Shown piece by piece: positions 17,511 through 30,358 of a stretch of 42,263 nucleotides of DNA (position 1 is its first letter; every line of letters starts with the position of its first letter). The stretch is from Intrasporangium chromatireducens Q5-1 (GTDB lineage Bacteria; Actinomycetota; Actinomycetes; Actinomycetales; Dermatophilaceae), in NCBI RefSeq assembly GCF_000576575.1, contig NZ_AWQS01000014.1:1-42263 (forward strand), in the 5' to 3' direction. Position numbers and translations under genes: made by a program. A model generated the notes under the pieces. The model was given only the letters and a program-made list of their open reading frames with translations. It did not search any database and was not told where the DNA came from.

Positions 17511-18592
17511 GTCGGTTGGTGGCCTTTCGACGTTCCCCAACGTCGACGGGCCACCGTCGGAAACTGGCCTTTCGTCGGTTCGTGGCCTTTCGACGTTCCC
17601 CAACGTCGAAGGGCCAGTTCGCGTCGAAGGGCCAGTTCGCGTCGACGGGCCACAAACCGACGGTGTCGTATGCCGCTCACCGCGGAACCGCGGGGACGCG
17701 CGGTCCCAGCTCAGCGGCATACGGCATCCGGCTTGCCGTCGGAAACTGGCCTTTCGTCGGTTGGTGGCCTCTCGACGTTCCCTAACGTCGAAGGGCCAGT
17801 TCGCGTCGACGGGCCACAAACCGACGGTGTCGTATGCCGCTCACCGCGGCACCGCTGGGACGCGCGGTCCCAGCTCAGCGGCATACGGCATCCGGCTTGC
17901 CGTCGGAAACTGGCCTTTCGTCGGTTGGTGGCCTCTCGACGTTCCGCATGTCGAAGGGCCAGTTCGCGTTGACGGGCCACAAACCGACGGTGTCGTAAGC
18001 CGCTCGCCGCGGACCGCGGGGGCGTGTGGTCCCAGCTCGGCGGCATACGGCATCCGCTTGCTGTCGGAAACTGGCCTCTCGACGTTCCCCAATGTCGAAG
18101 GGCCAGTTCCCGTCGACGGGCCACGAACCGACGGTGTCGTACGCCGTTCACCGCGGCACCGCGGGGGCGTGCGGTCCCAGCTCGGCGGCATACGGCATCC
18201 GGCTTGCTGTCGGAAACTGGCCTTTCGTCGGTTCGTGGCCTTTCGACGTTCCGCACGTCGAAGGGCCAGCTCGCGTTGAAGGGCCACAAACCGACGGTGT
18301 CGTATGCCGTTCACCGCGGAACCGCGGGGGCGTGCGGTCCCAGCTCGGCGGCATACGGCGTCCGGCTTGCTGTCGGAAAGTGGCCTTTCGTCGGTTGGTG
18401 GCCTCTCGACGTTCTCTAACGTCGAAGGGCCAGTTCATGTCGACGGGCCACAAACCGACGGTGTCGTATGCCGCTAACCACGGAACCGCGGGGACGCGCG
18501 GTCCCAGCTCGGCGGCATACGGCATCCGGCTTGCTGTCGGAAACTGGCCCTTCGTCGGTTCGTGGCCTCTCGACGTTCCGCCGGCTCAGCGG
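17511..18592. repeat. Tandem array of about six 163-bp nested-palindrome units
   Basis: The repeating point CGTATGCCGCT (or a variant) recurs at about 17667, 17831, 17994, 18138, 18301 and 18465, giving spacings of 164, 163, 144, 163 and 164 bp. Each unit has two stems. Stem A is built from GTCGGTT(C/G)GTGGCC and its inverse GGCCACRAACCGAC, around an inner CGACGTT/AACGTCG pair. Stem B is bounded by CGTATGCCGCT and AGCGGCATACG and encloses CCGCGG and GGGAC/GTCCC pairs. The 144-bp unit lacks about 19 bp between two TGGCC words. The first unit carries a perfect duplication of an 18-bp module (17605-17622 and 17623-17640). There is no convincing gene on either strand and no unique spacers, so it is not CRISPR. 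The array fills the gap from one base after the DUF3817 stop to the guaA promoter. Confidence 0.92.
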
Positions 18593-21657: not shown

Positions 21658-24333
21658 ATGTGCGGGATCGCGGGATACGTCGGCTTCGAGGCGGACGAGG
21701 CGCTGCTGCGCCGGATGAACGACTGCCAGCGCCACCGTGGTCCGGACGGCGAAGGCATCCTCATCGACGGTCGCGGGGGGCTCGCGCACCGGCGCCTGTC
21801 CATCATCGACGTGGCCCACGGCCAGCAGCCGATGAGCACCGCCGACGGCCGGTTCACGATCGCCTACAACGGCGAGGTCTACAACTACCTCGACCTGCGC
21901 GCCCAGCTCGAGGAGCTCGGCCACACGTTCACGACCGACAGCGACACCGAGGTGGTCCTCGAGGCGTTCGCCGCCTGGGGATCCGATGCGTTCGACCGCT
22001 TCAACGGGATGTTCGGCCTGGCCATCTGGGACCACCAGAACCGAACGATGACCCTCGCGCGCGACCATTTCGGCATCAAGCCCCTTTATGTATGCCGCTC
22101 AGCGGGCAGCGGTGCCGACGGCGGGGACGCGTGGTTGTTCAGCTCCGAGATCAAGCCGCTCCTGCAGTCGGGGCACTACGAGAAGCGGCCGAACGACCGC
22201 ACCATCTACCGCTACCTGCGCTTCCGGATCCACGAGGACGGCCGGGAGACGTTCTTCGACGGGATCGAGCGGCTCGAGCCGGGCGAGATGATGACGATCG
22301 GCGAGGACGGGCGCGCGGAGCGGCGCACCTTCACCCGGCTGCGTGAGGAGCTGGCCGAGCTGGCGTCGGTGCAGCGGCCCTACGACGAGTCGACGGCGGC
22401 GGAGTATCGCGAGCGGCTCGTCGAGGCGGTCCGGCTCCGGCTCCAGTCGGAGGTCCCGGTCGGCACGTCCCTGTCCGGGGGCCTCGACTCGTCGGCGGTC
22501 GCCGTCATCATCAACCGGTTGATCAACTCGGGCGACCGGACGACGGAGTCCGTCGGGCAGCAGCAGAACACCTTCAGCGCCGTGTTCCCCAACTCGATCA
22601 ACGACGAGGAGCGCTACGTCGACGACGTCCTCGACATCTGCCGCGGCCACGTCGACGGGCACAAGATCAAGCCGACGGCCTCCGAGTTCAAGGCCGACCT
22701 GCGCGACTTCGTGCGCACCCAGGAGGAGCCGCTCATCTCGAGCGGGCCCTACGCCCAGTACCAGGTGATGCGCGAGGCGACGAAGCACGTGACCGTGCTG
22801 CTCGACGGCCAGGGCGCCGACGAGATGATGGCCGGCTACGTGCCGTACTACTTCGTCTACCTGCGCCAGCTACGCGCCCAGGGTGCCCGCAAGGCGGCGA
22901 CCGAGCTGTCGAAGTCGCTCGACGTGCTCTACCGGCTCGGCCGGTTCAAGCTCAAGGCGAAGCTGCGCGGCCGCCGTGACGTCCCGACGACCCAGCTGCT
23001 CGGCCGCGACTTTGTCGGCGCCCACCAGGGGGAGCGCTACGTCGTCGAGCAGGCGAACCTCAAGAAGCGGCTCATCGAGGACCTCTTCGTCGGTTCGCTG
23101 CCGTCGCTGCTGCGCTACGAGGACAAGAACACGATGCGGTTCTCCCTCGAGGGACGGGTGCCATTCCTCGACAAGGAGGTCGTGAAGTTCATCTTCTCGC
23201 TGTCCGACGAGGCGATCATCAAGGACGGGTGGAACAAGCGCATCCTGCGTGACGCGACCCGCGACCTGCTGCCTGACTCGATTCGTCGGCGGCGCAACAA
23301 GATCGGCTTCACGACGCCTCAGGGCGAGTGGTTCATGACCCTGAAGAACCACTTCTACGGGATCTTCCTGTCCGAGTCGTTCGCGAACCGGCCCTACTTC
23401 AACCAGACCGAGGTCCTGCACGCGTTCGAGGGCTGGATCAAGGGGACCAACGACGTCGACTCGATGACGTTCTGGCGCCTGATCAACCTCGAGCTCTGGC
23501 TGCAGGAGTACTTCGACGAGCAGCCCAGCGCCGACACGGTCGCCGTGCAGAGCCAGCCGAAGACGGACTACGAGCCGAACGCGCGCAAGTCGCTCGACCT
23601 GACGCTCGACTCCGGGGAGGTCGTGCGACGCTATCCGCTCCGGACTGAGCTTTACGCCCGCGAGGACGACCTCGACGAGAAGACCCTGGGCTACATCGAG
23701 CGGTTCTTCGCCGGTCTGCCGTCGGCGCCGCCCGAGCACGAGGTGGCCACGAAGGGCCGCTGGTACTTCTTCATCTCGGAGAAGATCGTCGCGATCACGC
23801 AGGGGCGGTCCTACTTCATCTGGGACATCAAGGTGTCCCGCCCAGCCCGGGTCCTCTCCCGCTACGTCACCCGCACCCCGGCGGGCATCGGGCTCGGCTC
23901 GCCGTTCACGATGCAGCTCGCGATCCAGGAGGCGGGGCTGCCGAAGGTGCTCTATGCCGCGGCCGGCGGCGCGGTCGGCAAGCTGGTCGGCAAGCGGGGG
24001 ATGTTCTACGACCTCGTCGGGGGCGACATCCGGGCCATCGACGGGCCGACCGAGTACTCCGTCTACCCAGCGAACGTCTCGGCCAAGCTGGCGCCGAAGG
24101 ACCCGGACGCGGTGGCCGCGCGACTGTCGGCGGCGATCCGGGCTCGTGTCCCCGAGCCGTGGCGGTCGACGTTCGGCGGGACCGTGGTCATGGACGCCAA
24201 CGACATCGGCCGCAACGTCCTCGGCAAGGACGCGCCCGGGACCAAGGAGCGCTACGAGGCGATGTTCGCCGACAACCCGCTCGGGCAGGGCTCCGAGCAG
24301 ACGCCGATGGCGGTCGTCTTCGAGCAGCCCTGA
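21658..24333 (+). CDS. asnB: Asparagine synthetase fused to an F420-ligase (CofE)-like domain
   Basis: An 891-residue protein; usual AsnB is about 600-650. Residues 1 to ~210 form a class II glutamine amidotransferase with nucleophile Cys2 (MCGIAGY), RHRGPDG and YNGEVYN. The synthetase domain has the ATP-pyrophosphatase loop SGGLDSS at 273-279 and GQGADEMMAGY. From about residue 640 to the end lies an extra domain: ISEKIVAITQGR, RTPAGIGLGSPFT (739-751), IDGPTEYS (about 794-801), LAPKDPDAVAARL and VVMDANDIG (843-851). These resemble the coenzyme F420-0:L-glutamate ligase (CofE) family. The fused enzyme could amidate or ligate an unknown acid rather than make free asparagine. The start is certain because Cys2 must follow Met. 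The 14-bp repeat word is embedded at 22090-22103. AsnB part certain; CofE-like call moderate. Confidence 0.9.
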   Translation: MCGIAGYVGFEADEALLRRMNDCQRHRGPDGEGILIDGRGGLAHRRLSIIDVAHGQQPMSTADGRFTIAYNGEVYNYLDLRAQLEELGHTFTTDSDTEVVLEAFAAWGSDAFDRFNGMFGLAIWDHQNRTMTLARDHFGIKPLYVCRSAGSGADGGDAWLFSSEIKPLLQSGHYEKRPNDRTIYRYLRFRIHEDGRETFFDGIERLEPGEMMTIGEDGRAERRTFTRLREELAELASVQRPYDESTAAEYRERLVEAVRLRLQSEVPVGTSLSGGLDSSAVAVIINRLINSGDRTTESVGQQQNTFSAVFPNSINDEERYVDDVLDICRGHVDGHKIKPTASEFKADLRDFVRTQEEPLISSGPYAQYQVMREATKHVTVLLDGQGADEMMAGYVPYYFVYLRQLRAQGARKAATELSKSLDVLYRLGRFKLKAKLRGRRDVPTTQLLGRDFVGAHQGERYVVEQANLKKRLIEDLFVGSLPSLLRYEDKNTMRFSLEGRVPFLDKEVVKFIFSLSDEAIIKDGWNKRILRDATRDLLPDSIRRRRNKIGFTTPQGEWFMTLKNHFYGIFLSESFANRPYFNQTEVLHAFEGWIKGTNDVDSMTFWRLINLELWLQEYFDEQPSADTVAVQSQPKTDYEPNARKSLDLTLDSGEVVRRYPLRTELYAREDDLDEKTLGYIERFFAGLPSAPPEHEVATKGRWYFFISEKIVAITQGRSYFIWDIKVSRPARVLSRYVTRTPAGIGLGSPFTMQLAIQEAGLPKVLYAAAGGAVGKLVGKRGMFYDLVGGDIRAIDGPTEYSVYPANVSAKLAPKDPDAVAARLSAAIRARVPEPWRSTFGGTVVMDANDIGRNVLGKDAPGTKERYEAMFADNPLGQGSEQTPMAVVFEQP
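22090..22103 (+). repeat. 14-bp repeat word inside asnB
   Basis: GTATGCCGCTCAGC occurs in frame inside asnB just after the KPLY motif, within the segment VCRSAGSGADGGDAW that precedes FSSEIKPLL. This surface loop is variable in AsnB proteins, so the word may be a tolerated insertion. Confidence 0.5.
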
Positions 24334-24349
24334 TCCCACGCACCCTCCC

Positions 24350-24487
24350 CGTCGAGTGAGCGCAAACTCTGGTTCCCGCCCGTCGAGTGAGCGCAAACTC
24401 CGGAGTTAGGACTCACTCGACGGTTCGCAACCGCAGTTAGGGCTCACTCGACGGTTCGCAAGCGGAGTTCCGGCTCACTCGACGGGG
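24350..24487. repeat. Cluster of inverted CGTCGAGTGAG repeats
   Basis: Two forward copies of a ~30-bp unit starting CGTCGAGTGAGCGCAAACTC (24350 and 24380) are followed by three inverse copies of CTCACTCGACG (about 24412, 24443 and 24475). The two inverse full units read CGGTTCGCAA(C/G)CG(C/G)AGTT. The middle holds the palindrome AACTCCGGAGTT. The whole could fold into a large cruciform between asnB and the phosphoketolase gene, acting as a terminator or as a separate REP-like family. It shares no obvious word with the 17.5-kb array except GTCGA. The rest of 24334-24564 shows no gene. Confidence 0.8.
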
Positions 24488-27043: not shown

Positions 27044-28123
27044 CTAGCCGACGGGTTCGGCGTCGTCGAGATGGGCGTCGCCGGGCTCCTGCTTGGGGCT
27101 GAACCACCAGATGACCCAGCCGACCAGCCCGAGCGGCACCTCGAAGAAGTGGGTGAAGAGCGAGAAGAGCACCACGCCCGCCGTCGCCTGGGCCGGGTCC
27201 GCGCCCCACCCGACGAGCACGGCGGCCGTGCCGGCCTCCGTGACACCGAGCCCGCCGGGGGTGATCCCCACGGCGGTCAGCAGCCGGCCGACCGTGTAGG
27301 CCCCGAACATGTAGGCGAACGGCATCTGGACGCCCATCGAGTTGAGGCAGAACCAGAACAGGATGTAGTAGACGCCGAAGAACCCGACCAGCCCGTAGGT
27401 CATCTCGAGCCACCCGTAACGGACGATGTCGATGATCCGGCGGCGCAGGTCGGTGATCGCGAACTCGAGGTCGACGTCCTTCTTGCGTCGTCGCCGCAGC
27501 GGCCCGGAGATCTTCATCAGCCAGCGACCGAGCTTGTGCGCGAAGCTTTCCGAGGCCAAGGCGCCCCAAAAAGCCACGACGACACTGACGCCGATGAGGG
27601 CACCGAGGATCGCCGCTTGTGCGACAAGCGGATTCAGGTGTCCGATGCCGATGATGATTGCGACGATCCCGACGACCGGCAGCACGACGCGGGCCAGCAC
27701 GTTCCAGACCCCGGTGACGATCACCATCGTCGAGATGTCGCGCCGCAGGAAGCCCCACGACCGCAACTGCTTGTACGTCACGACGACCCCTGCCGCGCCT
27801 CCACCCGGCAGCAGGTTGCCGATCGAGCTGCCGCACGCGTTGACGATCATCGCCTGCACGTGCCCCAGCCCCTTGAGGGACCCGGTGTAGAGGAAGGTCA
27901 CGAGCCACAGCCCCGAGATCATCAGGACGGTCAGCCCGACCACGGTGCCGAGCTGCAGCTGTGAGAGCAGGTGCCACACGTCGGTCCACGTCGTGTGCGC
28001 CACCTTCGGCAGCCCCCACCAGAGGAGGAACACCGCGAGGCCCACGCCGACGACGAACTGCGCGAGACGCCATACGATCGAGCGCCCGTGGGACACCTCG
28101 CGGGTCGTTGGGGGCGCGCTCAC
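27044..28123 (-). CDS. Flippase-like membrane protein (LPG synthase TM / UPF0104 family)
   Basis: A 359-residue polytopic protein with about eight hydrophobic segments. It belongs to the lysylphosphatidylglycerol synthase transmembrane-region family, which includes flippase-like proteins acting on envelope lipids. The conserved glycine-rich LLPGGGAAGVVVTYKQL and ITPGGLGVTEAGTAAVLV motifs are present. The cytosolic middle loop is highly basic (RRRRKK). No aminoacyl-transferase domain is attached. Its GTG start overlaps the stop codon of the deacetylase gene by four bases (GTGA), so the two are co-translated. It converges on the phosphoketolase gene with 82 bp between, where no clear hairpin is seen. 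Confidence 0.88.
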   Translation of the reverse strand: MSAPPTTREVSHGRSIVWRLAQFVVGVGLAVFLLWWGLPKVAHTTWTDVWHLLSQLQLGTVVGLTVLMISGLWLVTFLYTGSLKGLGHVQAMIVNACGSSIGNLLPGGGAAGVVVTYKQLRSWGFLRRDISTMVIVTGVWNVLARVVLPVVGIVAIIIGIGHLNPLVAQAAILGALIGVSVVVAFWGALASESFAHKLGRWLMKISGPLRRRRKKDVDLEFAITDLRRRIIDIVRYGWLEMTYGLVGFFGVYYILFWFCLNSMGVQMPFAYMFGAYTVGRLLTAVGITPGGLGVTEAGTAAVLVGWGADPAQATAGVVLFSLFTHFFEVPLGLVGWVIWWFSPKQEPGDAHLDDAEPVG

Positions 28124-29061
28124 GTGAGTCCCTCGAAAACATCAGTCCGTATGCCGCTGTGTTTCCTTCCAGCGGCCCTACCCTTCCGCGTTCCCTCCCC
28201 ATCGAGAGCGCGATCCCCACGATCGAGAGCACAGTCCCCGTTCTCGTCGGGGGGGTGCGTAATCCCATGTGCCTCGGCCGTCGCATCGACGTACCACTCC
28301 CGGCCGAAGACCAGGTCGTAGAGCGGCCGGGGGATCCGCAGGAAGGCCGCCAGCGTGCGGTCGGCGCCGCCGTCGGCGCTTGCCTGGGAGGCGTGGGCCC
28401 GCATCGAGGCGCGCTTGGCAACGATGTGGCGACGAACGCTGATCCGGTGGGTGATGTCCCGGCGCGCCGAGAAGGCCCGGTTGAACGAGTTGCGGTCGAA
28501 CTCCGGCGGGAAGCGGTAGACCTTCGCGGCGAGGTCGATGGCCCGGCGGATCGTGTCGCGGGGCACCGTCGCCTGCAGGACGCGGCGGGTGCCGGCGAGC
28601 TCGGCGGCCCGCATCCCGACCTCGTGGGCCTTGACGTGGTCGGGGTGGCCGTAGCCGCCGTTCGGGTCGTAGGTGAGCAGGACGTCGGCGTCCTCCTCGG
28701 TGAGGATGGCCGCGAGCCGGGCGGCCGCCTCGTCGGTGTTGGCGCGCACGAACCGTGTCGCGCCCGGTGGATCGGGGGGTGCGTGCGGCCCGAGCCCGCT
28801 GTCGGCATAGCCGAGGTGCTCCACGCGAGCCACCCCGAGCGCCCGGGCGCTCGCCTCGAGCTCGCCCATGCGGCGGACGGCCAGCCCGCCGTCACCGGCG
28901 TACTCCGTGGCGGCGAGTCCCTCACCACCGTCGGTGGCCACGACGAGCACGACCCGGTGCCCCTCGGCGGCCGCGCGCGCCATCGTCCCCGACGTGAGGA
29001 GGGCCTCGTCGTCAGGGTGCGCGTGGAATGCGAGGAGCGTGTGCGGCATACGTTCGTCCAT
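28120..29061 (-). CDS. LmbE/PIG-L family zinc-dependent deacetylase
   Basis: A 313-residue cytosolic enzyme of the LmbE/PIG-L N-acetylglucosaminyl deacetylase family, which also includes MshB and Mca. Zinc and catalytic residues are seen in FHAHPDDEAL (about residues 12-21) and YDPNGGYGHPDHV. It probably removes an acyl group from a sugar or glycolipid; it is not clearly MshB or Mca. The last ~45 residues are charged, low in conservation, and partly encoded by the REP-like element at 28148-28176, so the natural C-terminus may have been lengthened by that insertion. The start is at 29061 or an in-frame ATG at 29049. It is coupled to the flippase gene downstream, and the glycosyltransferase starts 25 bp away on the other strand. 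Confidence 0.88.
   Translation of the reverse strand: MDERMPHTLLAFHAHPDDEALLTSGTMARAAAEGHRVVLVVATDGGEGLAATEYAGDGGLAVRRMGELEASARALGVARVEHLGYADSGLGPHAPPDPPGATRFVRANTDEAAARLAAILTEEDADVLLTYDPNGGYGHPDHVKAHEVGMRAAELAGTRRVLQATVPRDTIRRAIDLAAKVYRFPPEFDRNSFNRAFSARRDITHRISVRRHIVAKRASMRAHASQASADGGADRTLAAFLRIPRPLYDLVFGREWYVDATAEAHGITHPPDENGDCALDRGDRALDGEGTRKGRAAGRKHSGIRTDVFEGLT
28148..28176. repeat. REP-like element at the deacetylase 3' end
   Basis: CGTATGCCGCT at 28148-28158 belongs to the dispersed repeat family. GCCGCTG (28153-28159) and CAGCGGC (28170-28176) form a 7-bp stem with a 10-nt loop. It lies inside the coding end of the deacetylase gene, about 25 bp before its stop. Confidence 0.6.
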
Positions 29062-29086
29062 CTTTGCGCATGACAGAGTGTTCCCC

Positions 29087-30358
29087 GTGAAGGTGGCGCT
29101 CCTGTCCGACTGTTACCTGCCGCGCCTCGGCGGGATCGAGGTGCAGACCCACGACCTCGCCGGCCAGCTGGTGGCGCTCGGACACGAGGTCGAGGTGTTC
29201 ACGGCGACACCCGGTCCAGAGGGGGAGATGCACGGTGCGGTGACGGTCGTCGACGGCATCCCGGTGCATCGGCTGGCCATCCAGCTGCCCTGGGAGCTGC
29301 CGGTCAATCCCAGGGCACCGAAGGAGCTGCGACGGCGGCTCGTGTCCGGCGGCTTCGACGTGGCCCACGTCCAGACCGGCGTGGTCAGCCCCTTCGCCTG
29401 GGACTGCACGCGGGTCACGGTCGGGCTCGGCCTGCCGACCGCCATGACGTGGCACTGCATGCTCGGGCCGGTGACGTCCCTGTTCCGCGCCGCCCGGTTC
29501 GTGCGGCGGTGGGCCGACCGGGGGGTGGCGATGTCGGCCGTCTCGGAGGTGGCCGCCGAGCCGTTGCGCCGGGTCGTCGGTGCGGCCGGCGACGTGACGG
29601 TCCTGCCGAACGGGATCGACGTCGCCCGCTGGCGCCCTTCGACCCCGTCGGATACTGGCCTTTCGACGGGAACTGGCCTTTCGACGGGGTCAACCGTCGA
29701 AAGGCCACGAACCGACGAAGGGCCACGAACCGTCGAGAGGCCACGAACCGACGAGGGGCCACGAACCGTCGAAGGGCCACGAACCGACGAGGGGCCACTC
29801 CGGCTGGTCACCGCGATGCGGCTGGCGCCGCGCAAGCGGCCCACGGCCCTTGTCGACCTCGTCCGTCGGGCCGCCGACGCCGCCGGACCCGGCTCGCTCG
29901 ACCTGACGATCCTCGGGGAGGGGCCGGAGCGCCGCAAGATCGAGGCCCAGCTGCGCACGCACGGGCTCGACTGGGTCCACCTGCCCGGACGGGTGCCCCG
30001 TGACGAGCTCGCCACGCGTTATGCCGCGAGCGACGTCTACCTCTCGCCGACGAAGCTCGAGTCGTTCGGCATCGCGGCCCTCGAGGCCCGCACCGCCGGC
30101 CTGCCGGTCGTCGGCCGGGCAGGCTCCGGCATCGGCGAGTTCGTCACCGACGGCGTCGGCGGCCGCATCGTCGGCGACGACGCGGAGATGGCACGGGTCA
30201 TCGCGGAGCTGGCTGCCGACCGCGACGCCGTCGACCGGATGCGTCGCTGGAACCTCGACCACCCGCCGACCCAGGACTGGCCCGCGGTGGTCGCCCTTGC
30301 GGTGGCGGAGTACGACCGGGCCCGTGCCCTCGCGCGGCTCGGGAGCGCCCGCCGGTGA
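29087..30358 (+). CDS. GT4-family glycosyltransferase with repeat-expanded linker
   Basis: A 423-residue GT-B fold retaining glycosyltransferase. The N-terminal domain starts MKVALLSDCYLPRLGGIE, as in PimB'/PimA-like enzymes. The C-terminal nucleotide-sugar domain has LRLVTAMRLAPRKRP, LGEGPERRKIE and SPTKLESFGIAALEARTAGLPVV, with the conserved Glu of the EX7E motif. The two domains are joined at about residues 186-236 by a polar repeat (RTDEGP/RTVERP hexapeptides) encoded by five 18-nt units. These units share sequence with the 17.5-18.6 kb array, and the frame is kept. The GTG at 29087 matches family starts. Its stop overlaps the NUDIX start. It is probably a mannosyl- or other hexosyltransferase acting on an envelope acceptor; the donor is unknown. 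Confidence 0.92.
   Translation: MKVALLSDCYLPRLGGIEVQTHDLAGQLVALGHEVEVFTATPGPEGEMHGAVTVVDGIPVHRLAIQLPWELPVNPRAPKELRRRLVSGGFDVAHVQTGVVSPFAWDCTRVTVGLGLPTAMTWHCMLGPVTSLFRAARFVRRWADRGVAMSAVSEVAAEPLRRVVGAAGDVTVLPNGIDVARWRPSTPSDTGLSTGTGLSTGSTVERPRTDEGPRTVERPRTDEGPRTVEGPRTDEGPLRLVTAMRLAPRKRPTALVDLVRRAADAAGPGSLDLTILGEGPERRKIEAQLRTHGLDWVHLPGRVPRDELATRYAASDVYLSPTKLESFGIAALEARTAGLPVVGRAGSGIGEFVTDGVGGRIVGDDAEMARVIAELAADRDAVDRMRRWNLDHPPTQDWPAVVALAVAEYDRARALARLGSARR
29653..29797. repeat. In-frame 18-nt repeat module inside the glycosyltransferase
   Basis: Two copies of ACTGGCCTTTCGACGGG (29654 and 29672) are followed by five 18-nt units of the form GGCCACGAACCG(A/T)CGARR at 29703, 29721, 29739, 29757 and 29775. 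The word GTCGAAAGGCCACGAACCGAC is the exact inverse of GTCGGTTCGTGGCCTTTCGAC in the 17.5-kb array, so the two loci share one repeat family. Because 18 is a multiple of three, copy-number change keeps the reading frame. Confidence 0.88.

Follow-up and report, generated by a model that had tools for sequence, protein, structure and literature searches.

An asparagine synthetase fused to a predicted CofE-fold domain of a distinct subfamily in Intrasporangium chromatireducens and related bacteria

Introduction

The 42,263-nucleotide stretch of Intrasporangium chromatireducens Q5-1 considered here (contig NZ_AWQS01000014.1, hereafter the window) carries a gene whose product begins as an asparagine synthetase B (AsnB) and ends in a domain resembling CofE, the F420-0:L-glutamate ligase. 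What is a CofE-like domain doing at the end of an AsnB, and does it have any connection to coenzyme F420? As described in two reports (PMC10861534; PMC8498797), CofE employs a nucleoside triphosphate and two metals to form an acyl phosphate, which is then attacked by an amino group. An earlier reading made from the sequence alone (the sequence-only reading) took the fusion to be a dedicated joint enzyme making an amidated or glutamylated product other than plain asparagine. Our analysis partly supports this interpretation. Judging from sequence profiles and a predicted structure, the C-terminal domain is a member of the CofE fold and shares common ancestry with CofE, but it belongs to a distinct subfamily. 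The CofE-fold extension and its recurrent pairing with AsnB are borne out, and one joint product of the two halves is no more than a possibility. New above all are the subfamily's separation from F420 genes, its recurrent pairing with AsnB, and the repeated erosion of AsnB motifs with retention of the CofE-like domain.

Results

The fusion protein and its C-terminal domain

The fusion is encoded by a single unbroken frame (Table 1). Pfam and NCBIfam profile scans assign residues 1-616 to a full AsnB (GATase_7 plus Asn_synthase), which scores 401.7 bits against TIGR01536, above the cut-off of 267.1, and the C-terminal extension comprises a further 257 residues. In a model of the full-length protein (predicted local distance difference test [pLDDT] 86.4, predicted template modeling score [pTM] 0.74), two confident parts are separated by a low-confidence linker, and a second low-confidence stretch (residues 797-806) lies within the CofE-like domain between the AIDG and KLAPKDPD motifs. 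The motifs quoted in the sequence-only reading (SEKIVAITQGR, RTPAGIGLGSP, IDGPTEYS, LAPKDPD, and VVMDANDIG) are all present in frame.

By itself, the window's domain matches only PF01996, with an E-value of 9.3e-4 and 19.2 bits, which is under the curated cut-off of 25, so that a plain cut-off scan of the window's sequence would miss it. An NCBIfam scan of the domain gave no match, phmmer with the single window domain found nothing among the PDB sequences, and phmmer searches with single domains recovered no CofE. We also aligned the window's domain with 46 relatives from the 75 loci described below (alignment A1, 47 members). All 47 matched PF01996 at E≤0.1, with a best value of 4.8e-20, and none matched any other Pfam family. 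The CofE model of NCBIfam was matched by 29 (best 6.7e-13), and TIGR04132, the folate gamma-glutamate ligase model, by 24 (best E 1.1e-5) but not by the window's domain. Some relatives thus score strongly. An hmmsearch of A1 against the PDB sequences placed three CofE sequences at the top (E 3.8e-5 to 4.6e-5), and hhalign against ten FbiB sequences gave just a weak match, with 61.5% probability across 47 columns.

An AlphaFold2 model of the CofE-like domain (pLDDT 87.7, pTM 0.86) returned five Foldseek matches with E<0.001, all of them CofE (CofE E 1.6e-7). Structural comparison with the CofE chains reached a Z of 13.8 (187 aligned residues, root-mean-square deviation 3.7) vs. 4.3 for the best unrelated chain; RidA, chorismatase-like, and capsid chains (Z 4.3 and lower) were treated as background. 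The A1 matches to PF01996, the PDB hmmsearch, Foldseek, and the structural comparison thus bear out a CofE-like extension after a complete AsnB, with CofE found by profile and structure searches alike.

The domain shares with CofE and the N-terminal domain of FbiB (PF01996; PDB 2PHN and 7ULD) its fold, the first motif block, the DPD and DxN motifs, and its size class. It differs in being only 13-20% identical in structural alignments and below the Pfam cut-off, in having a family-specific central stretch, in a C-terminal part that is ~50 residues shorter downstream of the DxN motif, and in occurring also in genomes without CofD and canonical CofE. In our tree, which is a quick version only for all tree-based statements made here, canonical FbiB forms its own clade (support 100) apart from the CofE-like family. 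The SEK..A..QGR, AIDG, KL.PKDPD, and D.ND motifs are invariant in A1, and their conserved Asp residues fit a CofE-type nucleoside triphosphate/metal mechanism, though parts of the substrate pocket differ. The subfamily is apparently unstudied, as no paper on it or on an AsnB-CofE fusion was among the matches listed, which consisted of titles and abstract openings with few subscription papers covered.

Distribution of the fused and stand-alone forms

A scan of the genome collection yielded 75 loci, 46 of which (L002-L047 minus L031, plus L070) contain fused genes. The fused carriers are mostly Intrasporangiaceae, Dermacoccaceae, Sinomonas, Tersicoccus, and Microlunatus, together with one Coriobacteriia bin, another actinobacterial bin, and one Firmicutes bin. 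In L031, from a Saccharibacteria bin, the CofE-like gene is truncated by the contig edge and an AsnB ending at query residue 583 is found on another contig; it is probably also fused. This apparent actinobacterial-type fusion, split over two contigs in a Saccharibacteria bin (G290), could represent either transfer or a binning error. As for the phylogenetic spread called for in the sequence-only reading, the fusion is thus recurrent in Actinobacteria, with one further case in Firmicutes and probably one in Saccharibacteria. The remaining 28 loci have stand-alone genes from Clostridia and some uncultured bacteria, although L065 and L071 are cut by a contig edge and their stand-alone state is uncertain.

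The frequency of carriers varied among the samples, each of which includes its own centre genome, itself a carrier. Carriers made up 14/246 genomes of the phylum sample at E≤1e-10, 48/149 genomes and 19/53 genera of the window's family sample at E≤1e-20, and 34/391 genomes from the class of the clostridial genome G272, likewise at E≤1e-20. No open frame in these 34 clostridial-class carriers exceeded 272 aa, the clostridial stand-alone protein being ~235 aa.

F420, folate, and cell wall ligase genes in carrier genomes

A canonical CofE/FbiB (>100 bits) accompanies CofD in 12 of 17 carrier genomes, with CofD above its cut-off (TIGR01819) in 11. Neither CofD nor a canonical CofE was found in four of the 17 (G254, G103, G007, and G008), including the genome of L041, Sinomonas sp. 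R1AF57 (G008), which is a chromosome record; G254 has two CofH-type matches slightly below the cut-off. We therefore rejected an F420 ligase as the likely general role of the domain, and F420 is unlikely to be its general substrate. Only three of the 17 carriers have CofH above the cut-off, so the others may not produce F420. In the assemblies G001-G006, G009, G011, and G012, CofD and a canonical FbiB are present and CofH above the cut-off is absent. Replacement of FolC was rejected as well, because FolC is above the cut-off in 17/17 carriers, and replacement of MurC at the lactyl carboxylate was dropped, MurC being above the cut-off in 22/22 genomes.

The sequence-only reading had asked whether a separate asnB and cofE exist elsewhere in the window's genome. 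None were found, as the fusion contains its sole Asn_synthase at E≤1e-10 and its only PF01996 match, with no FbiB detected. The CofD match in this genome is a 41-position piece running off the end of contig C326, so the absence of FbiB is unreliable and the gene may sit in an assembly gap. A PF01996 match may lead annotators to apply an F420-ligase label in bacteria showing no F420 pathway.

The AsnB half and its erosion in relatives

The AsnB half of the window's protein has its Cys2, glutaminase motifs, and SGGLDSS ATP-loop all in place, in common with E. coli AsnB (TIGR01536; 1CT9). The two differ in that the fusion has DGQGADE for SGEGSDE, a C-terminal fusion partner, relatives with motif erosion, and no Asp at what we take to be the aspartate-site position, since it is absent in the LLRYEDKN region under either of two alignments. 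This reading of the Asp site is ambiguous by one residue. AsnBs with a DGQGADE-type motif are widespread and some may make asparagine; thus, plain asparagine may be the product here. According to one report (PMC8554201), the peptidoglycan-amidating AsnB/LtsA enzymes, which are AsnB homologues amidating meso-diaminopimelic acid and not aspartate, likewise lack aspartate-site residues. The fusion resembles them as an AsnB homologue, and its carriers differ in cell-wall type.

Among the 46 fused relatives having an AsnB part, AsnB motifs are altered or lost in 15, while the CofE-like part of the same proteins stays 70-88% identical to that of the window. This count leaves out L031, whose contig contains hardly any AsnB sequence, and does not treat as eroded L016, which lacks its first residues through a probable frame break; several starts were picked by motif. 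Eleven of the eroded copies, from Terrabacter, Terracoccus, Humibacillus, Intrasporangium flavum, and an Intrasporangiaceae strain, have lost RLSIID and have YNGE changed to LDGE (nine), FDGE (L010), or LDGD (L012). For these, identity to the window is 42-51% in the AsnB part (residues 1-545) vs. 80-88% in the CofE-like part. In the remaining four, the ATP-loop is changed or lost too. In L024 and L025, Cys2 is replaced by Ser and the loop is broken (AsnB 44-46%, CofE-like 74-77% identical), and in the Microlunatus loci L027 and L028 nearly all AsnB motifs are gone (21.5-22.6% identical) ahead of an in-frame CofE-like part that is 70% identical. The halves of intact relatives are usually alike (e.g. 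L019, 78% and 77%), with exceptions such as L030 (AsnB 76% vs. CofE-like 88%) and Sinomonas (~63% vs. 58%). guaA lies upstream within the fetched locus in 13 of the 15 eroded copies (not L027 or L028).

On the tree, the eroded state requires six changes, at least two of which are forced by well-supported branches. We also estimated the ratio of nonsynonymous to synonymous substitution rates (dN/dS, NG86). In eight eroded pairs it was 0.16-0.61 for the AsnB part and 0.07-0.14 for the CofE-like part, as compared with 0.10-0.36 and 0.05-0.16 in six intact pairs, the intact value of 0.36 (L015/L016) being doubtful and probably affected by the L016 frame. Relaxation of the AsnB part is clear in four of the eight eroded pairs. 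A second, intact DGQGADE-type AsnB occurs in four of seven checked genomes with eroded copies (G003, G013, G014, and G015; fused in G013 and G015), and no AsnB besides the eroded copy was found at E≤1e-10 in G001, G002, and G004.

AsnB beside unfused CofE-like genes

The pairing also exists outside the fusion. In L127, an AsnB gene directly adjoins the stand-alone CofE-like gene, and L187-L190, which come from genomes of the window's own family, carry unfused AsnB and CofE-like genes next to each other at the corresponding site near guaA, LPG_synthase_TM, PIG-L, and GT4 (guaA was not found in L189 nor LPG_synthase_TM in L190, whose CofE-like gene was missed by gene calling and placed by tblastn). 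Such an arrangement as separate neighbors supports a shared pathway. Relative to the fusion, the unfused genes are only 38-41% (AsnB) and 32-36% (CofE-like) identical despite 81-82% identity of guaA (three of the four loci), so that simple descent from them in place does not account for the fusion; from these sequence comparisons, the fused form may have replaced separate genes rather than arising from them in place. GT4/PIG-L/LPG_synthase_TM was discarded as a general conserved context, because it was seen only in the window's own family. No AsnB adjoins the gene in the clostridial loci; of 32 genomes searched, 22 have an AsnB match at E≤1e-20, four of them with the fused or a related type.

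Gene neighborhoods

Neighborhoods were examined for 66 loci, 60 of which are from the clostridial sets. Gene calls were mechanical, such that some short neighbors are probably spurious, and names mostly derive from one representative per family scanned with hidden Markov models (HMMs); yggT, ftsZ, ftsL, PHP, and formate-tetrahydrofolate ligase genes were named by eye, the yggT-like gene having no NCBIfam match. One clade includes 13 loci (68-98% identity) in which murB is directly downstream of the CofE-like gene; in most of these, relatives of PHP, RapZ/YvcJ, YvcK, and WhiA come after murB. glmS is directly upstream in five loci. In L066, 271 bases separate the CofE-like gene from mraZ downstream, which is followed by rsmH and a penicillin-binding protein gene, and in L127 the CofE-like gene is beside divIVA, with yggT-like and ftsZ-like genes nearby. 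In Bacillus subtilis, GlmS, YvcJ, and YvcK/GlmR interact around UDP-N-acetylglucosamine, as stated in PMC7525490. An envelope role suggested by neighborhood is only a lead.

Two further arrangements were seen. In L062 (4597-5604) and L068 (6883-7905), the stand-alone CofE-like gene and a gene for a sugar-transfer associated ATP-grasp protein (PF14397) are coupled, with gaps of 1 and -1, and in L109-L111, a class III aminotransferase gene closely follows more distant CofE-like genes (HMM scan on L111 only).

Discussion

The explanation that we favor, and to which we give somewhat less than an even chance, is that the fusion consists of an AsnB-type glutamine-dependent amidotransferase, a short flexible linker, and an amide ligase of CofE fold that represents a separate, as yet unnamed subfamily, with a cell-envelope precursor as the leading acceptor candidate. 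By analogy to CofE, the C-terminal domain would most likely bind a nucleoside triphosphate and divalent metal via its conserved Asp residues, phosphorylate a small-molecule carboxylate, and then couple this carboxylate to an amino group. F420-0 and folate are both improbable acceptors. As an accessory step, the AsnB half would amidate a carboxylate, belonging to aspartate or to an intermediate of the shared pathway, and its catalysis seems to have been dropped in some lineages that keep the ligase. The homology and fold, fusion, recurrent pairing, AsnB motif erosion, and separation from F420, FolC, and MurC genes are results of the analysis; the ligase chemistry, the substrate class, the order of the steps, and the loss of AsnB activity are inferences. 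A glutamylated product, as proposed in the sequence-only reading, would be an analogy from CofE alone.

A more specific and rather doubtful proposal is that the family constitutes a new cell-wall-precursor amide ligase, which would join an amino acid to a carboxylate of an envelope precursor, of the UDP-N-acetylmuramic acid type or another. In Clostridia this ligase would be encoded next to the GlmS-YvcJ-YvcK control module, and in Micrococcales it would be fused to an AsnB with amidating activity. The model is CofE itself, whose reaction attaches glutamate at the lactyl carboxylate of F420-0. If true, this would imply an undescribed modification of the wall or of a glycolipid.

Several results weigh against the favored explanation. 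Envelope genes account for just 3 of 28 distinct operon-like neighbor families (murB, glmS, and a weak VanW-like family), most of the others being unscanned, and the tree needs a single origin to explain the murB context and three changes to explain that of glmS; with so few envelope families and a single murB origin, the envelope lead may be chance. The neighbor in L075 resembles a formate-tetrahydrofolate ligase by eye. Surroundings of the window's type were not found by tblastn of the fetched loci in Sinomonas, Tersicoccus, Flexivirga, Leekyejoonella, or Microlunatus, and more distant family members (L109-L116) show altered core motifs. The clostridial loci have no AsnB beside the CofE-like gene, which, together with the erosion in 15/46, indicates that an intact AsnB is not needed for retention of the CofE-like domain. 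Of the 15 eroded copies, 11 retain Cys2, most of them with a nearly normal ATP-loop as well (SGGVGS in L012). In addition, no eroded pair has an AsnB dN/dS that reaches 1, and four of the eight (0.16-0.18) fall inside the intact range, so the AsnB part appears to keep some role and is not simply dispensable.

Could the domain instead ligate a known cofactor? Its CofE fold and the lack of another PF01996 match in the window's genome are what would be expected if it served as the organism's F420-0:glutamate ligase in place of FbiB. We find this highly improbable, as 12 of 17 carriers already hold the canonical enzyme beside CofD and four hold neither, the FbiB of the window's genome may lie in the gap past the C326 edge, and the ~50 residues missing after DxN would correspond to the region of CofE with the domain-swapped hairpin and R234, an F420 contact (PMC10861534). 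A ligase adding gamma-glutamate to folate or another pterin, similar to FolC2, is suggested by the TIGR04132 matches in about half of A1, the L075 neighbor, and the ability of the Chlamydia COG1478 member CT611, likewise a CofE-family ligase outside F420 synthesis, to complement folC (PMC1971073). This too is very unlikely, given that the carriers checked have an ordinary FolC and that the window's domain does not match TIGR04132.

Two other possibilities concern how the halves work. They might operate as one machine, in which glutaminase-derived ammonia is used at the CofE-like site or both halves act sequentially on the same molecule. Although the fusion, the repeated adjacency, and the constraint on AsnB parts even with altered motifs all speak for it, the CofE-like part is kept where Cys2 is lost (L024, L025, L027, and L028), where glutamine-site motifs are altered (11 more), and at clostridial loci without a neighboring AsnB, which makes the idea unlikely; an ammonia-coupled bifunctional enzyme as a general mechanism is weakened by the four Cys2 losses. 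Alternatively, the CofE-like part could be a non-catalytic sensor of a nucleotide or metabolite. Its CofE motif set is only partial, and YvcK, a CofD-family protein, serves a regulatory function of that kind (PMC7525490 and PMC6171935). We regard a sensor as unlikely, because the core motif residues are invariant in the 47 A1 members whether fused or not, an argument limited by the core motif differences in L109-L116. The analysis sets a coherent subfamily of Clostridia, Actinobacteria, and others apart from F420, FolC, and MurC roles, links it to AsnB in Actinobacteria, and identifies the AsnB motifs as the part that erodes, so that what this widespread gene does could be tested directly in a small number of strains.

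Feature coordinates and additional observations

Table 1. Coordinates of the fusion gene, its parts, and neighboring genes in the window
Feature	Position	Strand	Remarks
Whole fusion gene	21658..24333	+	891 aa plus stop (24331-24333); ATG start read at 21658
Class-II glutamine amidotransferase part of AsnB	21658..22164	+	Cys2; GATase_7 residues 44-169
Asn_synthase	22402..23505	+	ATP-loop SGGLDSS residues 273-279; DGQGADE 383-389
Linker	23524..23556	+	Residues 623-633; pLDDT <50 between two well-modeled parts
CofE-like domain	23560..24330	+	Residues 635-891
SEKIVAITQGR motif	23776..23808	+	S, E, K, A, Q, G, R invariant throughout A1 (47 members)
Family-specific stretch from first CofE motif to Asp motif, including hydrophobic helix	23878..24027	+	
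AIDG	24034..24045	+	Asp795 invariant in A1, candidate metal ligand; putative CofE equivalence
KLAPKDPD	24085..24108	+	Aligns with LLPPLDPD of CofE
DAND	24193..24204	+	Asp846 aligns with Asp of DTNG in CofE
guaA	18631..20229	+	Upstream of fusion; likewise in 25/47 fused loci fetched
LPG_synthase_TM	27044-28123	-	Group 27044..30358, wholly or partly near fused and unfused forms in the window's family
PIG-L deacetylase	28120-29061	-	Part of group 27044..30358
GT4 glycosyltransferase	28997-30358	+	Part of group 27044..30358

The window also contains several repeats. Six tandem units of ~164 bp (87% matches) occupy 17622-18579, immediately 5' of guaA, and 2.8 copies of a 31-bp unit are found at 24400-24485, shortly 3' of the fusion gene. 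Arrays of an 18-bp repeat at 29654-29798 lie within the GT4 glycosyltransferase frame and yield a repetitive protein stretch; by eye, these look like parts of the units in the 17.6-18.6 kb array.

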